A stretch of DNA of 37,760 nucleotides from Dethiobacter sp. Lineage in GTDB: Bacteria; Bacillota; Dethiobacteria; Dethiobacterales; Dethiobacteraceae. The notes under the pieces are model-generated. The model saw nothing but the letters and a program-made list of their open reading frames with translations, searched no databases and was not told where the DNA came from. Both the position numbers and the translations under genes were made by a program. Positions 13,748 through 25,461 of the stretch are shown one piece after another. The DNA is taken from positions 1 to 37,760 of the forward strand of contig DYEY01000065.1 of assembly GCA_020725465.1 (NCBI GenBank), in the 5' to 3' direction. The first letter of the stretch is position 1; the number at the start of each line of letters is the position of its first letter.

Positions 13748-13777
13748 AGGCTGCACCTCAGCGTGCAGCCTTTTTTT
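13748..13777 (+). terminator. Intrinsic terminator hairpin with its T-run on the plus strand
   Basis: AGGCTGCAC (13748-13756) pairs with GTGCAGCCT (13763-13771), followed by TTTTTTT on the + strand. It sits right after the stop of the minus-strand NamZ gene, where the minus-strand tail (GTTAATTTG) is poor in T. It probably works in both directions, better on the plus strand. Confidence 0.7.
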
Positions 13778-15558
13778 CATTTGGTAAGTTTCTGGCTTTC
13801 CAGCAATTGGTTAAAAAGGCTGGCTTCTCCGGTTTTTCTAAAAATTTTGCCCGCGGCGTCGTAACTTACCCGGTCAAAATCCAGTATCCGGTCTGTCAAC
13901 TGAAAAACTTTCCCTCTCTCCAAAGCGGCGGCGGAACTGAACTCCATCTGCCAGGTCAGGGCCAGTTCAGCCGCTTTGTCCAGGTAGTTTCCCGGCCAGG
14001 CGCCGGTCAGGTGATCGTTGTAGCCAAGTATCCGCAGCAGCACGGTGATTACTTCAGCGGCGCTGATATTTTCGTCAGGGCGGAAAGACCCGTCTGGGTA
14101 CCCCTTAACAAACCCCTGCTGGAATGCCAGGTTAACCCAGCCGGCATGCCAGCTCCCCGGCAGCACATCACGGAAAAGCGAAGGCCGGGAACGCTGCAGC
14201 GGCTCGCGGTTTTTCAGGCCGGCCATTATCACCGCCACTTTGGCAAACTCGGCCCTGGTAATGTTATTGGCCAGCCGGAATGTACCGTCAGGGTAACCTT
14301 CTATAACACCCAGTCCATAAAGGCGTTCCGTGGCCGCCCCGGCCAGGTCTAAGCGGTAGGGAGCATCACCGTAAATCAGGTAAGCCGTTCTTTCTTCCTT
14401 AAAACGGTTGAGCGCGGGAGCATAATTAGCCTCGATTTGCTGCGGGGAAAGCCCCTGTTCCAGGTACTGGCCGATTTTGTCAGTACCCATTATTTTATCA
14501 AACATAACTATAGACTGGGAGGTCTGACCGCTTTTGGGCACAGTAAAGTTGTTGAGAGACCTGGCAAAGGCAAGGGCGTAGATGCCTGTACGCGCAGGGT
14601 TGAAAGTCCGGTAATCGGTTATTTTCAGGCGCACACCCCCGGCGGTGCCGGACTTTTCCGGCAAAAAGACAACGCCGGGCAGCCCCGCGCCGTTTAGCAG
14701 CCGGGCAAATTCCACCTCATTTATTCCCCTGCCGCCAATCCAGCGGAATTTGTCGGCCTGGAAAATACCTGTGCCCTCGCCCAGCCCGGTAGCCATATAA
14801 CCAAAGGCCGAATCCAGGTCCTGAATATTGGGTGAAGTCCTTACCCAGGGCAATCCTGTATCCTGGAACACCATCTGGCGCGTGTAACCCGTCATGGGAA
14901 TTACCCTCAGGTCGGCCCCGATTTTACGGTTAAAAAACCTGGCCAGCTCACCGGCAGTCATGCCATGAGCCATGGGGAGGTTGTCCACACCCACGAAAGA
15001 TATGAAGCGGTCCTCCATCATGGGACCCTCCACAATTACACCTCCCACCGGGTTAGGGCGGTCCAGCACTATGACCGGGATGTTATACTTTTTTGCCTCT
15101 GCCATAACATAATTAAGGGTGGACATATATGTATACGAGCGGGCCCCTATATCCTGAATATCAAAGAGCAATACGTCCACACCCTTCAGCATCTCAGCGG
15201 TGGGCCTCCTGGTCTTGCCATAAAGGCTATAGACGGGAATACCAAGCCGGGGGTGGGTATAAGATTCAACATAGGCACCGGCCTTGGCCGCACCGTCAAT
15301 ACCGTGCTCCGGTCCGTACAGTGCCGCCAGTGTCAGTGATTTGTCAGCAGCCAAGATATCGATGAGGCTTTTCCCCTTGCTGTCCACCCCGGTCTGGTTG
15401 GTAACCAGGCCCACTCTTTTACCTTTTATCAGGTAGTGGTAGCTGTCAAAAAGTACCTCGTTACCCAGCCTTACCACCGGGGTCTGGGCAGCAGCGCCGG
15501 CTCCTGCCTGAAGCAATAATATAAAAAAAACCAAAAATCCGGCCAATACTCTTTTCAT
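13777..15558 (-). CDS. namZ: SLH-anchored exo-beta-N-acetylmuramidase (NamZ / DUF1343, GH171)
   Basis: A 593-residue secreted protein. Signal peptide 1-24 (cut near GAAA-QT). The DUF1343/NamZ domain spans about 28-400, with LVTNQTGVD, YGPEHGIDGAAKAG (conserved Glu about 84), PVYSLYGKTRRPT, LLFDIQDIGARSYTY, VLDRPNPVGG and GEGTGIFQADKF. Two clear SLH repeats follow (about 408-449 with GVIEGYPDGTF and 461-512 with GFVKGYPDGSF), then a weaker third to about 560. NamZ enzymes remove MurNAc from the non-reducing ends of peptidoglycan fragments. The SLH repeats should hold it on secondary cell-wall polymer. Start ATG at 15558 follows GGGGAGAAATAA. Confidence 0.88.
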   Translation of the reverse strand: MKRVLAGFLVFFILLLQAGAGAAAQTPVVRLGNEVLFDSYHYLIKGKRVGLVTNQTGVDSKGKSLIDILAADKSLTLAALYGPEHGIDGAAKAGAYVESYTHPRLGIPVYSLYGKTRRPTAEMLKGVDVLLFDIQDIGARSYTYMSTLNYVMAEAKKYNIPVIVLDRPNPVGGVIVEGPMMEDRFISFVGVDNLPMAHGMTAGELARFFNRKIGADLRVIPMTGYTRQMVFQDTGLPWVRTSPNIQDLDSAFGYMATGLGEGTGIFQADKFRWIGGRGINEVEFARLLNGAGLPGVVFLPEKSGTAGGVRLKITDYRTFNPARTGIYALAFARSLNNFTVPKSGQTSQSIVMFDKIMGTDKIGQYLEQGLSPQQIEANYAPALNRFKEERTAYLIYGDAPYRLDLAGAATERLYGLGVIEGYPDGTFRLANNITRAEFAKVAVIMAGLKNREPLQRSRPSLFRDVLPGSWHAGWVNLAFQQGFVKGYPDGSFRPDENISAAEVITVLLRILGYNDHLTGAWPGNYLDKAAELALTWQMEFSSAAALERGKVFQLTDRILDFDRVSYDAAGKIFRKTGEASLFNQLLESQKLTK

Positions 15559-19417: not shown

Positions 19418-19751
19418 TTTATCCTCTCCCTCTTTATATTATTTATAGATATAATGTTTCTATTAGAACAATACCAGAATATTTCCATATTTCAAGCTTT
19501 GAACAATAAATTTATATTAGAAATACACCAAAATTATTTTTTTTAGAAGAAAAAAGGCTCCTTATAGAGCCTTTTGCTGCTGTAAAAGCAGAATCAGTGA
19601 CAATATTGTCGATAAAGCTTATGGTTGCGCCAGCCCTGTCGGTTCCGGTGCGATATAACGCTGATTTTCAGCATATTTCCCGGGAAATATTGGGCGCTTC
19701 CCCCGCCGCGCGCCTGTTTTGATGAAAAATGTCCAAAAGAGAGCCTGTATA
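19418..19751. other. 334-base intergenic region with palindrome and terminator
   Basis: From right to left it holds the 3' region of the DUF3048 gene, a perfect 18-bp palindrome ATATTTCCCGGGAAATAT at 19673-19690, the terminator at 19546-19575, and an AT-rich promoter stretch for the Cys-rich gene. No convincing longer open frame. Confidence 0.6.
19546..19575 (-). terminator. Terminator of the ftsEX operon
   Basis: AAAAGGCTC (19552-19560) pairs with GAGCCTTTT (19567-19575) around a six-base loop; the minus-strand tail is TTTTTTCTTCT. Confidence 0.85.
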
Positions 19752-21170
19752 TTAAGGCCGGGTTATCTGTATCCAGGTAAGGCCGTATACACGCTCTATT
19801 TCCTCACCGTCTTCATAGAAAAAGCGGGTTGGTGAGGTTATGCTGTCTTTTTTCCAGATACCTGCAAAGTATTCCCCCTGGGCATAATAGTCGATTTTCC
19901 CTTCGCCCACCAGGTTTGGGGTGGGCCTGCCCTGCGGATCAATAAAATGAGGGGCGTACTGTATTATTATATTGCGCACCCTGATTTCATCACCGGTGGC
20001 ATCCCGGTGGACGGCGTCATTAACAAAGCGCCGGTACGTACCGGTCTGGGCATTGTATTCATATTTTAACCGGTAATTGGGGCTATACTGAAGCGTTATT
20101 GTTTGGGCAGGGGTACCCTCCCTGCTTAAAAAAGCGGGACGGATTATAACGGCTTCTGATGGCTCCCTGACACCCAGGGTGGAAAGGTTCACGTATAGGT
20201 TGTGGGGCGCCCGGCGCGACGGGTCACGGAAGATGCTTTTGCTTTTATAGTACAGGGCATTTGTACCCTCAATCTTCCAGTTGCTGATCTGGGCCAGGAC
20301 GTCAACACCGGCACTGGAGTAGATAAAATTGACGCCGTTCTCCAGGGCCAGCATGGCGCTATGCGTCCTCGCGCTGCGAACAGGCCCCACCTTAGCCGGT
20401 AAGTTGGCAAAGAAGGCCAGGTAGCGTGTTATCCGCCCTTCCACCTCGTATTCATAAATCAGATTGGCCCTGGCCAAACCATGCTGCGGCCTGGCCTGCG
20501 GTGCATTATCAATGGCGACGGCGTAGACCGGCATCCTCTCGGCCTGTGGCGTAATCCGTGCCAGTTCCCCGGCCAGCCGGTTTTTAGCCGCCGCCAGCAG
20601 CCTCTCTTTTTCCTGCCGTTCTGCGGCCAGGTTGCGCCGTTCCGCTTCACTGTTAAACCGGATATTCTGCAACACCTGGCGCTTCTGTTCCATATCTTTC
20701 CGGGTTGTTTCATACCTGGCCCGGTCTTCCCTGATAGCGGCAATCAGCCGGGAGTCGCTGTTTAAAATTCTTGCTATGTAAGCGGCACGTGTAACCAAGT
20801 CACCCAGGCTCTCCGCCTCAAGCAACGTATCCAGATAAGATATGCTGCCCTTCATATAAACGCTACGGACGCGGCTGGCAAAATTACGGCTGGTTTCCGC
20901 CAGCCTTGCTTCTGCCCGGACCAGTTCGGCCTTTACCTGGTGCAAAACTTTTTCCGTTTGTTCAAATTCCGCATCCAGCGCCTCTATCCGTTCCAGGCGG
21001 GTCTTAATAGACTCATCCAGCGCTTTGAGTACCCTTTCCAGTTCCGTAATTTCCCGACGTGTCTGCTCTGCTTTCTGCCGCAGTTCCCCGATGTTGCCGT
21101 AAGCCGGAGCCACAAAGAAGGCAGCTAATAATACAGCCAGCAATATAACGGTCAGGCTGCGTGATTTCAT
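19752..21170 (-). CDS. FtsEX-linked coiled-coil protein with DUF3048 (YerB-like) domain
   Basis: A 472-residue secreted protein, ATG at 21170 behind GGGGGGATGATGC. Signal sequence 1-24 (LLAAFFVAPAYG). Residues about 26-205 are a long coiled coil with the block VYMKGSISYLDTLLEAESLGD (about 104-124), the hallmark of the N-terminal domain of PcsB, CwlO-type and EnvC proteins that FtsX binds. Residues about 212-472 are DUF3048: PVYAVAIDNAPQARPQHGL, EYEVEGRITRYLAFF, VGPVRSARTH, and a C-terminal part with GKIDYYAQGEYFAGIWKK. No M23, CHAP or NlpC/P60 peptidase is present. It is the third gene after ftsE and ftsX with a 20-base gap. I infer a wall-acting protein controlled by FtsEX; the activity of DUF3048 is not established. 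Confidence 0.85.
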   Translation of the reverse strand: MKSRSLTVILLAVLLAAFFVAPAYGNIGELRQKAEQTRREITELERVLKALDESIKTRLERIEALDAEFEQTEKVLHQVKAELVRAEARLAETSRNFASRVRSVYMKGSISYLDTLLEAESLGDLVTRAAYIARILNSDSRLIAAIREDRARYETTRKDMEQKRQVLQNIRFNSEAERRNLAAERQEKERLLAAAKNRLAGELARITPQAERMPVYAVAIDNAPQARPQHGLARANLIYEYEVEGRITRYLAFFANLPAKVGPVRSARTHSAMLALENGVNFIYSSAGVDVLAQISNWKIEGTNALYYKSKSIFRDPSRRAPHNLYVNLSTLGVREPSEAVIIRPAFLSREGTPAQTITLQYSPNYRLKYEYNAQTGTYRRFVNDAVHRDATGDEIRVRNIIIQYAPHFIDPQGRPTPNLVGEGKIDYYAQGEYFAGIWKKDSITSPTRFFYEDGEEIERVYGLTWIQITRP

Positions 21171-21190
21171 GCATCATCCCCCCTTGCCCC

Positions 21191-22075
21191 TTACGCCTTC
21201 AGGTACTTACGGACAGATATCAGGCTACCCAGCCCGCCCATCGCCGTGCCTGTGGCCAGCAAAGTAGCCAGAATTGAGAAGAGTGTGGGCATATGAGTTA
21301 CTGGCTGCAGAAAGAAGGCCAGTGTTTCTCTCTGCATGAAAGCAGCCAGCCTGAAATAAGCTAATCCCACAGCCAGAGCCGCTGCCACAGTTCCCGTCCA
21401 GCCCATAACTATTCCCTCCATGAGGAAAGGGAAACGGATAAACCAGTTGCTTGCCCCCAGGTATTTCATCACGCTTATTTCTTCCTGTCGCGTCAACACT
21501 GACAGCCGGATTACCGTAACAATCAGAAAGACAGCTCCCAGAGCCAGCAGCGTACCGGTGATAATAAAAATTTTGTTCAGCCAACCGGTTACCCTGGTCA
21601 GCAGGCCAACCAGGTGTTCTCCGTAATCGGCGGACTCCACTCCCGGGATGTTCTGTATCTCAGCAGCCAGGACCGGTACCAGATCAGTGCGGACCACCTT
21701 AACCCGGTACATATCAGGTAGCGGGTTATTCTCGCCTTCCAGGCCGCTTAAGGGTACGCGGTCCCCCAGAGAACGGCTGAACTCAGCCAGTCCGTCCTCT
21801 TTGGACACAAAAACGAAGCTTTCCACCCCTTCCAGGGCAATCAGCCCCCGGCGGACTTCCTCCTTATCGGCGCTGTCGTATAAAAACACGCTGATATCGA
21901 CGGTTGACTCTATGGTACGCATGGCCTGCCCGGCGTTGACGGCAAACAGCAGAAAGCCGCCCAACATAGCCAGGGAAATGGCAATTATACCGGCAGTAAC
22001 CGCCACCAGCCAAACATTCCGCCACAGAGAAATGTAACTCTGGCGCAGGCAGTATCGTAAAGAGTTGCTATTCAT
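21191..22075 (-). CDS. ftsX: Cell division protein FtsX
   Basis: A 294-residue membrane protein. Cytoplasmic N-terminus (RYCLRQSYISLWRNVW), helix 1 (about 22-45), an extracellular loop of about 120 residues with VDISVFLYDSADKEEV, FVSKEDGLAEFSRSLGD, LPDMYRVKVV and IPGVESADYGE, then three more helices. The cytoplasmic loop RQEEISVMKYLGASNWFIR is the FtsX signature. It transmits ATP hydrolysis by FtsE across the membrane to activate peptidoglycan hydrolases. Its ATG overlaps the ftsE stop by 8 bases. Confidence 0.95.
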   Translation of the reverse strand: MNSNSLRYCLRQSYISLWRNVWLVAVTAGIIAISLAMLGGFLLFAVNAGQAMRTIESTVDISVFLYDSADKEEVRRGLIALEGVESFVFVSKEDGLAEFSRSLGDRVPLSGLEGENNPLPDMYRVKVVRTDLVPVLAAEIQNIPGVESADYGEHLVGLLTRVTGWLNKIFIITGTLLALGAVFLIVTVIRLSVLTRQEEISVMKYLGASNWFIRFPFLMEGIVMGWTGTVAAALAVGLAYFRLAAFMQRETLAFFLQPVTHMPTLFSILATLLATGTAMGGLGSLISVRKYLKA

Positions 22076-22754
22076 GGCTGTAAGTCCCCCGCTCTTCGTC
22101 CCGTACGATAAGCCCTTTTTCCAGGGCTACCACCCGTTTTTTCATACCGTTAACCAGGTCCCAGGCATGGGTGGCGATAATTACCGTGGTGCCGGACCGG
22201 TTGATATCCTCAAACAGTTCCATTAAGCGACGGGAATTCTCCCTGTCCACGTTTCCGGTGGGCTCGTCTGCCAGAATAACCAGCGGATCCTTAACAATAG
22301 CCCTGGCAATCCCCACCCGCTGCTGCTCTCCGCCTGAAAGCCGGGAGGGGAAAGAATTCTCCTTGCCTGCCAAGCCCACTCTTTCCAGGGCCAGGGACAC
22401 CCGCGCCCTGATGGCCCTTGGCGATTCCCCCAGAACCTCCAGGGCAAAGGCGACATTTTCAAAAACCGTCTTTTGCCGAAGCAGGCGGAAGTCCTGAAAT
22501 ACCATGCCGATTTTACGCCGTACCTTCAGTAGCTCGCTCTCACGCAACCCGGCCATGTCACGGCCGTTAAAAAATACCTTGCCTGAAGTGGGATCTATTT
22601 CCCGGAATATCAGCTTAATCAGGGTGCTTTTTCCGGCGCCGCTCGGGCCCACCAGAAAAACAAAGTCGCCTCTGGCAATATTAAGGGAAACGCCGGACAG
22701 CGCCCCCGCACTGCTGCCATTATAGATTTTTTGAACATCCCTGATTTCTATCAA
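22068..22754 (-). CDS. ftsE: Cell division ATP-binding protein FtsE
   Basis: About 228 residues. Walker A GPSGAGKST, Q-loop VFQDFRLL, ABC signature LSGGEQQRVGIARAI, Walker B VILADEPTGNVD and H-loop ATHAWDLV. I choose TTG at 22752-22754, which lies six bases behind AAGGGGTG. This gives the usual M-I-E-I-R-D-V beginning; the GTG three codons upstream is inside the ribosome site. First gene of the FtsE-FtsX-DUF3048 operon. Confidence 0.93.
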   Translation of the reverse strand: MIEIRDVQKIYNGSSAGALSGVSLNIARGDFVFLVGPSGAGKSTLIKLIFREIDPTSGKVFFNGRDMAGLRESELLKVRRKIGMVFQDFRLLRQKTVFENVAFALEVLGESPRAIRARVSLALERVGLAGKENSFPSRLSGGEQQRVGIARAIVKDPLVILADEPTGNVDRENSRRLMELFEDINRSGTTVIIATHAWDLVNGMKKRVVALEKGLIVRDEERGTYSHE

Positions 22755-24629: not shown

Positions 24630-25415
24630 TTAAGGGATTGCTATTTTATCCACGTTAAGAGCATTAACCAGGGGAAAATACTGCTCGTACACGTGCAGCC
24701 CGTCGGAAAAGGCTACGATGGGGCCGTCCTCCACCGGGAAAGTCAGGTGTGCCAGCACGTATTCCTTTAAAAGCTGCAGGCCACCAAGATTTTCAGGCAG
24801 GCCGCTGAACAAGTCCCAACTCCGGAAATAGACGGTCATCTGCAGCTTCCCTGCCACCACCTTAAAAGAGATAACACGCAGGCAGGGCGGGTCGCCCTGG
24901 CAGATGGAAGCAGGTTCTCCCACCGTTACCGTAGCCTGGTTGGTGTTGCCGCCGGAACTGTTGAGCAGCTCAATGGCTTTTGCGATTTGCCCTGAAATAT
25001 ACATGCCGTAAGTGTAATCTTCATTGGCGGCCTTTTGTGAACCTATAATGTAATCCAGGAAATAACTGTTTATTTTATCTTCATCGGTGGGTGCCGGTAT
25101 GCCGCACCCCTCAGGAGTCCGTACTGCCAGCGGGCGGGTCTGGGGTTCTTCAATCAGGATGGAAACATACGGCAGCTGCCGGCGGATCTGCCCCACGTAG
25201 CTGCCAGCTTTAACCGTGTAATCAATGCCGTTACGGACACAGCACCACATGGCATCTCTCCAGACGTCTTCGATAGTCCTGCCGCGCACGAAGTTGCCAA
25301 AAAACAGCATCCTGCTCTTTAACCGGCTAAGCTCGGCTTCCAGGCCGGCCTTCTCTTCTCGCAGCAACATGAGCTCTCTGTCGGTGTCTGTCATTTTTGC
25401 ACCCCGTTTTTGCAT
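24630..25415 (-). CDS. Divergent thymidylate synthase-like protein with N-terminal coiled coil
   Basis: 261 residues from ATG 25413-25415, which has AGGAG at good spacing; an in-frame TTG upstream has no site. Residues 11-35 form a coiled coil. From about 45 on it follows the ThyA fold: GRTIEDVWRDAMWCCVRNGI, YTYGMYISGQIAKAIELL, then DPPCLRVISFKV with the Cys (about 178) at the position of the catalytic nucleophile. YFRSWDLFSGLPENLGGLQL keeps the phosphate-binding Arg-Ser, the Asp and the base-reading Asn, and FSDGLHVYEQYF keeps the His-x-Tyr. The Arg-Arg pair normally found before the active site is Asn-Gln here (T-N-Q-A, 158-161). Probably a divergent ThyA subgroup; dTMP synthesis is inferred. 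Confidence 0.72.
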   Translation of the reverse strand: MQKRGAKMTDTDRELMLLREEKAGLEAELSRLKSRMLFFGNFVRGRTIEDVWRDAMWCCVRNGIDYTVKAGSYVGQIRRQLPYVSILIEEPQTRPLAVRTPEGCGIPAPTDEDKINSYFLDYIIGSQKAANEDYTYGMYISGQIAKAIELLNSSGGNTNQATVTVGEPASICQGDPPCLRVISFKVVAGKLQMTVYFRSWDLFSGLPENLGGLQLLKEYVLAHLTFPVEDGPIVAFSDGLHVYEQYFPLVNALNVDKIAIP

Positions 25416-25461
25416 ATTCTCCTGTAGCAATTAGACAAAATGTTCTTTTTCCCTGCCGGAT

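Follow-up and report, generated by a model that had tools for sequence, protein, structure and literature searches.

A second FtsEX operon in Dethiobacter with a secreted coiled-coil effector that ends in DUF3048

To our knowledge, the FtsEX complexes characterized so far all control peptidoglycan hydrolysis, and DUF3048 is a widespread domain whose structure has been solved since 2007 with no function assigned. The two meet in a 37,760-nucleotide stretch of DNA from Dethiobacter sp. (this whole stretch is called the window below), where a sequence-only reading had described an FtsEX operon whose effector carries DUF3048 instead of a peptidoglycan hydrolase domain. The locus raises two questions: whether this is the FtsEX complex of the organism or an additional one, and what DUF3048 would do as its output.

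Structure of the window operon and its canonical paralogue

The operon is read from the minus strand in the order ftsE, ftsX and effector gene. The ATPase gene ftsE (paralogue 2; 22068..22754) encodes a protein that exceeds the TIGR02673 cut-off (274 bits against 264.85) and has Walker A, signature and Walker B motifs intact (GPSGAGKST, LSGGEQQR and VILADEPTG in the translation). Its TTG start is preceded by AAAGGGG, and a TTG start is seen again in homologues, behind a GGAGTGC/GGGGTGC-like ribosome site. The ftsX gene (paralogue 2; 21191..22075) encodes a membrane protein above the NF038347 cut-off (251.8 bits against 225) with the FtsX extracellular domain (PF18075, E 2e-17). The third gene (19752..21170) encodes a secreted effector of 472 amino acids. 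The tight packing reported earlier is borne out by an 8-base overlap between ftsE and ftsX and a 20-base gap between ftsX and the fusion gene. The single terminator reported with it holds in part: a terminator-like hairpin is present 3' of the operon on the same strand (19552..19575), approximately 180 bases past the fusion stop, but it is a consensus match only and one of several in the region.

Two further genes of the window were recorded. A gene for a NamZ exo-muramidase with SLH domains lies near the cassette (13777-15558), and in the genome G015 a NamZ exo-muramidase gene is directly upstream of ftsE (L142:3410-4216). For the protein encoded at 24630-25430 the sole match is a partial one, to thymidylate synthase (E 2e-7, residues 148-256).

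Profile searches agree with the earlier description of the third protein as a PcsB-type coiled coil joined to a complete DUF3048. Behind a signal-peptide-like N terminus, which is also seen across the homologues in other genomes, the effector matches CC_PcsB (PF24568) at residues 87-154 (E 1e-12, 48.1 bits against a cut-off of 27), DUF3048 (PF11258) at residues 206-332 (E 9e-31, 107.4 bits against 25) and DUF3048_C (PF17479) at residues 358-467 (E 1e-22, 80.7 bits against 25). The N-terminal region of the window effector has no cysteine, and a conserved lipobox cysteine is absent from the family homologues. The search against Pfam and NCBIfam profiles found no known hydrolase domain in the effector: there is no C-terminal CHAP, NlpC/P60 or M23 catalytic domain and no M23/LytM match, the PcsB equivalog model reaches 28.9 bits against 450, and the EnvC model reaches 20.6 bits against 270, over the coiled coil only.

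The coiled-coil part (residues 26-212; 20535..21095, minus strand) is antiparallel. In the AF2 model it consists of two long helices, 27-106 and 122-206, and residues 112-117 form a short helical tip; between the two helices lies the FtsX-binding-type block VYMKGSISYLDTLLEA. This tip is strongly conserved in the alignment of family homologues (RVRSxYMKGGLSYLExLLxAxxxGDL). Both the profile search and Foldseek match the coiled coil to RipC, PcsB and EnvC. The solved complexes of RipC and EnvC show the FtsX extracellular domains bound to this tip and to the ends of the helices beside it (PMC10694151, PMC7668044). The model of the full-length effector is of moderate confidence (pLDDT 78.8, pTM 0.57), so the relative placement of coiled coil and DUF3048, or any autoinhibited state, is not to be read from it.

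The genome that contains the window encodes two FtsX_ECD proteins, two CC_PcsB proteins and three DUF3048 proteins. Its canonical operon is intact elsewhere (locus L047, contig C22) and comprises ftsE, ftsX, a gene for a coiled coil-M23 protein, a CtpA-like protease gene and a gene for a PDZ protein; it lies near uvrBA, and upstream of it are prfB and the end of secA (CtpA, PDZ, uvr, prfB and sec being the names that we presume from our own reading of the translations). The window operon therefore encodes an extra FtsEX, a paralogue that has an effector to itself. Identity between the window and canonical proteins is 55.5% for FtsE, 34% for FtsX and 30% for the coiled coil. The claim that DUF3048 stands in place of a hydrolase is thus right for the window operon and wrong if taken to describe the sole FtsEX of the organism. 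A separate coiled coil-M23 partner, whose existence might have undermined the assignment, is indeed encoded, but it comes with its own FtsE and FtsX, and the two cognate pairs leave the assignment standing. The canonical FtsX of related genomes likewise has a coiled-coil effector of its own.

Conservation of the three-gene unit

The fusion is not peculiar to the window. It is present at full length in all 20 genomes of the family, which is the whole order as sampled, with 47-61% identity and an alignment that runs across the joint; the assembly join that might have been suspected near residues 205-212 is excluded by this. In the class the fusion occurs in 32 of 98 genomes from five families (the copy of G081 runs off its contig), and a phylum sample of 398 genomes adds the families f25, f40 and f59, for a total of 45 genomes in eight families. 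An ftsX of the window type is directly upstream of the fusion in 44 of these 45 genomes, as is ftsE wherever the locus reaches that far; the exception is G306, in which the contig of the fusion yielded no FtsX. The distance from the fusion to ftsX, proposed earlier as a check, is mostly a gap of less than 40 bases or a small overlap. As the flanking genes otherwise differ between the loci compared, the three genes hold together as a block, and the ftsEX-DUF3048 arrangement is old and conserved. A chance neighborhood or an assembly join, already refuted by the 44 adjacent pairs and by the single clades described below, retains a negligible probability. G046 carries one more copy of the fusion, which looks truncated and has no ftsX beside it (L095:3938-5056).

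The fusion goes with an additional FtsX. Two or three FtsX proteins are encoded in 44 of the 45 fusion genomes, the exception being G014 (one FtsX, 90% complete), and in 28 class members that lack the fusion there is one FtsX in 27 and none in G077 (Fisher p 2e-19, uncorrected for relatedness). In a tree of 77 FtsX sequences the DUF3048-linked FtsX proteins form one clade (support 99), those of a third type form a separate clade (support 100), and a single group of M23-linked FtsX proteins is not rejected (p-AU 0.54). The cassettes of G010 (f1), G081 (f6) and G129 (f40), at loci L088, L100 and L020, cluster in this tree; their grouping suggests that the cassette moved between lineages as a three-gene unit.

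The third FtsX is found in seven genomes of the family, in the gene order coiled-coil protein, ftsE, ftsX (L123:2087-4782, L124:2172-4879, L125:2043-4740 and L143-L146). The C-terminal part of its effector matches no Pfam family above cut-off; one of three such effectors gives a hint of LmeA phospholipid-binding proteins below threshold (E 0.034). This weak likeness suggests that FtsEX may also have outputs other than hydrolases. A broader view, to which we give nearly even weight, is that FtsEX may be a general switch outside the cell whose duplicates have been rewired to outputs other than hydrolases, with one paralogue driving DUF3048 and the third, in some relatives, an uncharacterized domain, such that one cell would run up to three machines with different envelope tasks. 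We found no report in the open-access literature of a cell with two or three FtsEX paralogues that each have an effector of their own.

Candidate roles and timing of the DUF3048 output

The DUF3048 domain of the effector (residues 204-472; 19755..20561, minus strand) was modeled alone with AF2 from 43 sequences, at a pLDDT of 95.6. The sole clear structural relative found is YerB of Bacillus subtilis (2psb; Z 32.3, rmsd 2.3 over 257 residues), a search outcome that does not by itself prove a new fold, and neither sequence nor fold shows similarity to any hydrolase. The fused domains form one clade against the standalone copies (support 99) and retain N222, E240, E244, R249, R265, S266, R268, E277, R381 and W439, among others. 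Since the charged residues that are invariant in the standalone proteins are all retained in the fused copies, the domain is unlikely to be a dead remnant. Residue 270 (window numbering) is tyrosine in 20 of 21 standalone proteins and histidine in all fused copies compared.

A scan of named genomes with the fusion protein, which relies on exact short motifs, gave one DUF3048 relative, aligned over the DUF3048 part alone. Long DUF3048 frames in family f6 were considered as further fusions and rejected: none of the eight examined has an adjacent ftsX, and none of the three scanned has CC_PcsB. These proteins (L080-L087), and one at L048:3436-4701, have N-terminal extensions of approximately 130-200 residues without a match to any known family, and are unlinked to ftsEX.

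What the domain does can be approached from its position. DUF3048 sits where PcsB, CwlO and RipC have their catalytic domain, and E240, E244, R249, R265, R268, E277, R319, H323 and R381 are retained in the fusions of the family, and nearly all of them in standalone proteins. Both observations are consistent with DUF3048 being itself an enzyme acting on peptidoglycan, or a wall-binding domain, that FtsEX releases in the manner of those systems. This reading, a refinement of the best explanation, is plausible and falls somewhat below an even chance, as the domain lacks hydrolase likeness and the conserved residues would suit binding equally well. EnvC provides the precedent for a different arrangement, in which FtsEX would expose DUF3048 and thereby activate some other hydrolase, for instance an Amidase_3 enzyme. 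Amidase_3 genes occur in 10 of the 11 fusion genomes tested, but amidases are common anyway, the loci compared show no hydrolase gene consistently linked to the cassette, and G094 (92% complete) has the cassette and no Amidase_3 match at 1e-10; we regard an activator role as doubtful. DUF3048 could instead act on another part of the envelope (a lipoprotein, the S-layer, teichoic acid or the membrane), or sense the state of the wall and signal inward through FtsEX. The YerB of Parageobacillus is a lipoprotein with no assigned function (PMC13068155), and the LmeA hint in the third cassette points the same way; the characterized FtsEX outputs, which control peptidoglycan hydrolysis, speak against it, and we consider it unlikely, a little more so than the activator role.

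The timing of the complex may be linked to sporulation, a proposal compatible with any of these roles and one that we treat as a tentative lead only. Spo0A or SpoIVA is found in 39 of 45 fusion genomes and in 16 of 28 genomes that lack the fusion (p 0.01), and within family f2 in 7 of 7 against 3 of 13 (p 0.003), with relatedness uncorrected in both comparisons. However, many spore formers lack the cassette, and G065 has the cassette and neither marker. Sporulation is delayed in B. subtilis ftsEX mutants (review, PMC7828314), and yerB is listed among the core sporulation genes controlled by Spo0A (PMC3416734). A SigH-like promoter lies 5' of the DUF3048-type ftsE in many copies (AGGAWW, 11-14 bases, RnnGAAT; 19 of 42 ftsE copies against 0.05 in shuffles), but it is missing at the ftsE of the window itself and also precedes canonical ftsE (12 of 43 with the strict pattern, 36 of 43 with the relaxed one), and was for the latter reason rejected as a sporulation-specific signature of the paralogue. 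Sigma E and sigma G/F motifs are not enriched upstream of the DUF3048-type ftsE. The SigH promoters listed for C. difficile look alike (PMC7438776), and the -10 part of the element resembles the Spo0A box TGTCGAA (PMC3485338). As an observation in its own right, a strongly conserved SigH-like element, AGGWWW-N11-15-TGTCGAAT, precedes ftsE of both FtsEX types at many loci, including L047:5346-5370; its -10 part is identical to the core of the Spo0A box.

Proposed mechanism and comparison with known systems

The explanation that we consider likely is that the locus specifies a second, dedicated FtsEX mechanotransmission complex with a DUF3048 output, beside the canonical FtsEX-M23. The earlier proposal of an FtsEX-coupled effector with DUF3048 as its output domain is upheld by the pairing with ftsX, the single fused clade and the intact domain. 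Contact between FtsX and the coiled coil, and switching driven by ATP, we infer by analogy with EnvC, PcsB and RipC. FtsE and FtsX would form a type VII ABC complex, in which the extracellular domain of FtsX would grip the secreted coiled coil at its tip (the YMKGSISYLDTLLEA block). Cycling of ATP by FtsE would then move the coiled coil, and DUF3048 would be freed or positioned on the wall side of the membrane. There it would be the part of the module that does the work, by acting on an envelope target or by recognizing one. The module would run beside the canonical hydrolase complex, and the step at which it acts is probably one of division or one related to sporulation.

The conserved joining of DUF3048 to an FtsX-type coiled coil assigns the domain to the control of the envelope and points to a predicted partner, and the fused version offers a route to studying YerB through the step that the second FtsEX switches. 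YerB and the other DUF3048 proteins (PDB 2psb) share the fold and the conserved residues of the effector domain; YerB is a free lipoprotein, whereas the DUF3048 of the window is hung on an FtsX-type coiled coil. The closest comparison within the same cell is the paralogous canonical operon, whose output is an M23 peptidase, followed by the CtpA-like protease gene and uvrBA, in contrast to the DUF3048 output of the window operon. FtsEX-PcsB of Streptococcus and FtsEX-CwlO of Bacillus likewise combine FtsE, FtsX and a secreted coiled-coil effector with the CC_PcsB domain, and share with the window effector the block YMKGxxSYLExLLxAxxxxDL; they differ in having CHAP or NlpC/P60 as output, and the window complex exists beside a canonical FtsEX of which it is a paralogue. 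The FtsEX-EnvC complex of E. coli and the FtsEX-RipC complex of M. tuberculosis have the same coiled-coil architecture, and their solved complexes match the window coiled coil in the fold search. While RipC ends in NlpC/P60 and EnvC in a degenerate, amidase-binding LytM domain, the window effector ends in a DUF3048 whose conserved residues are intact.
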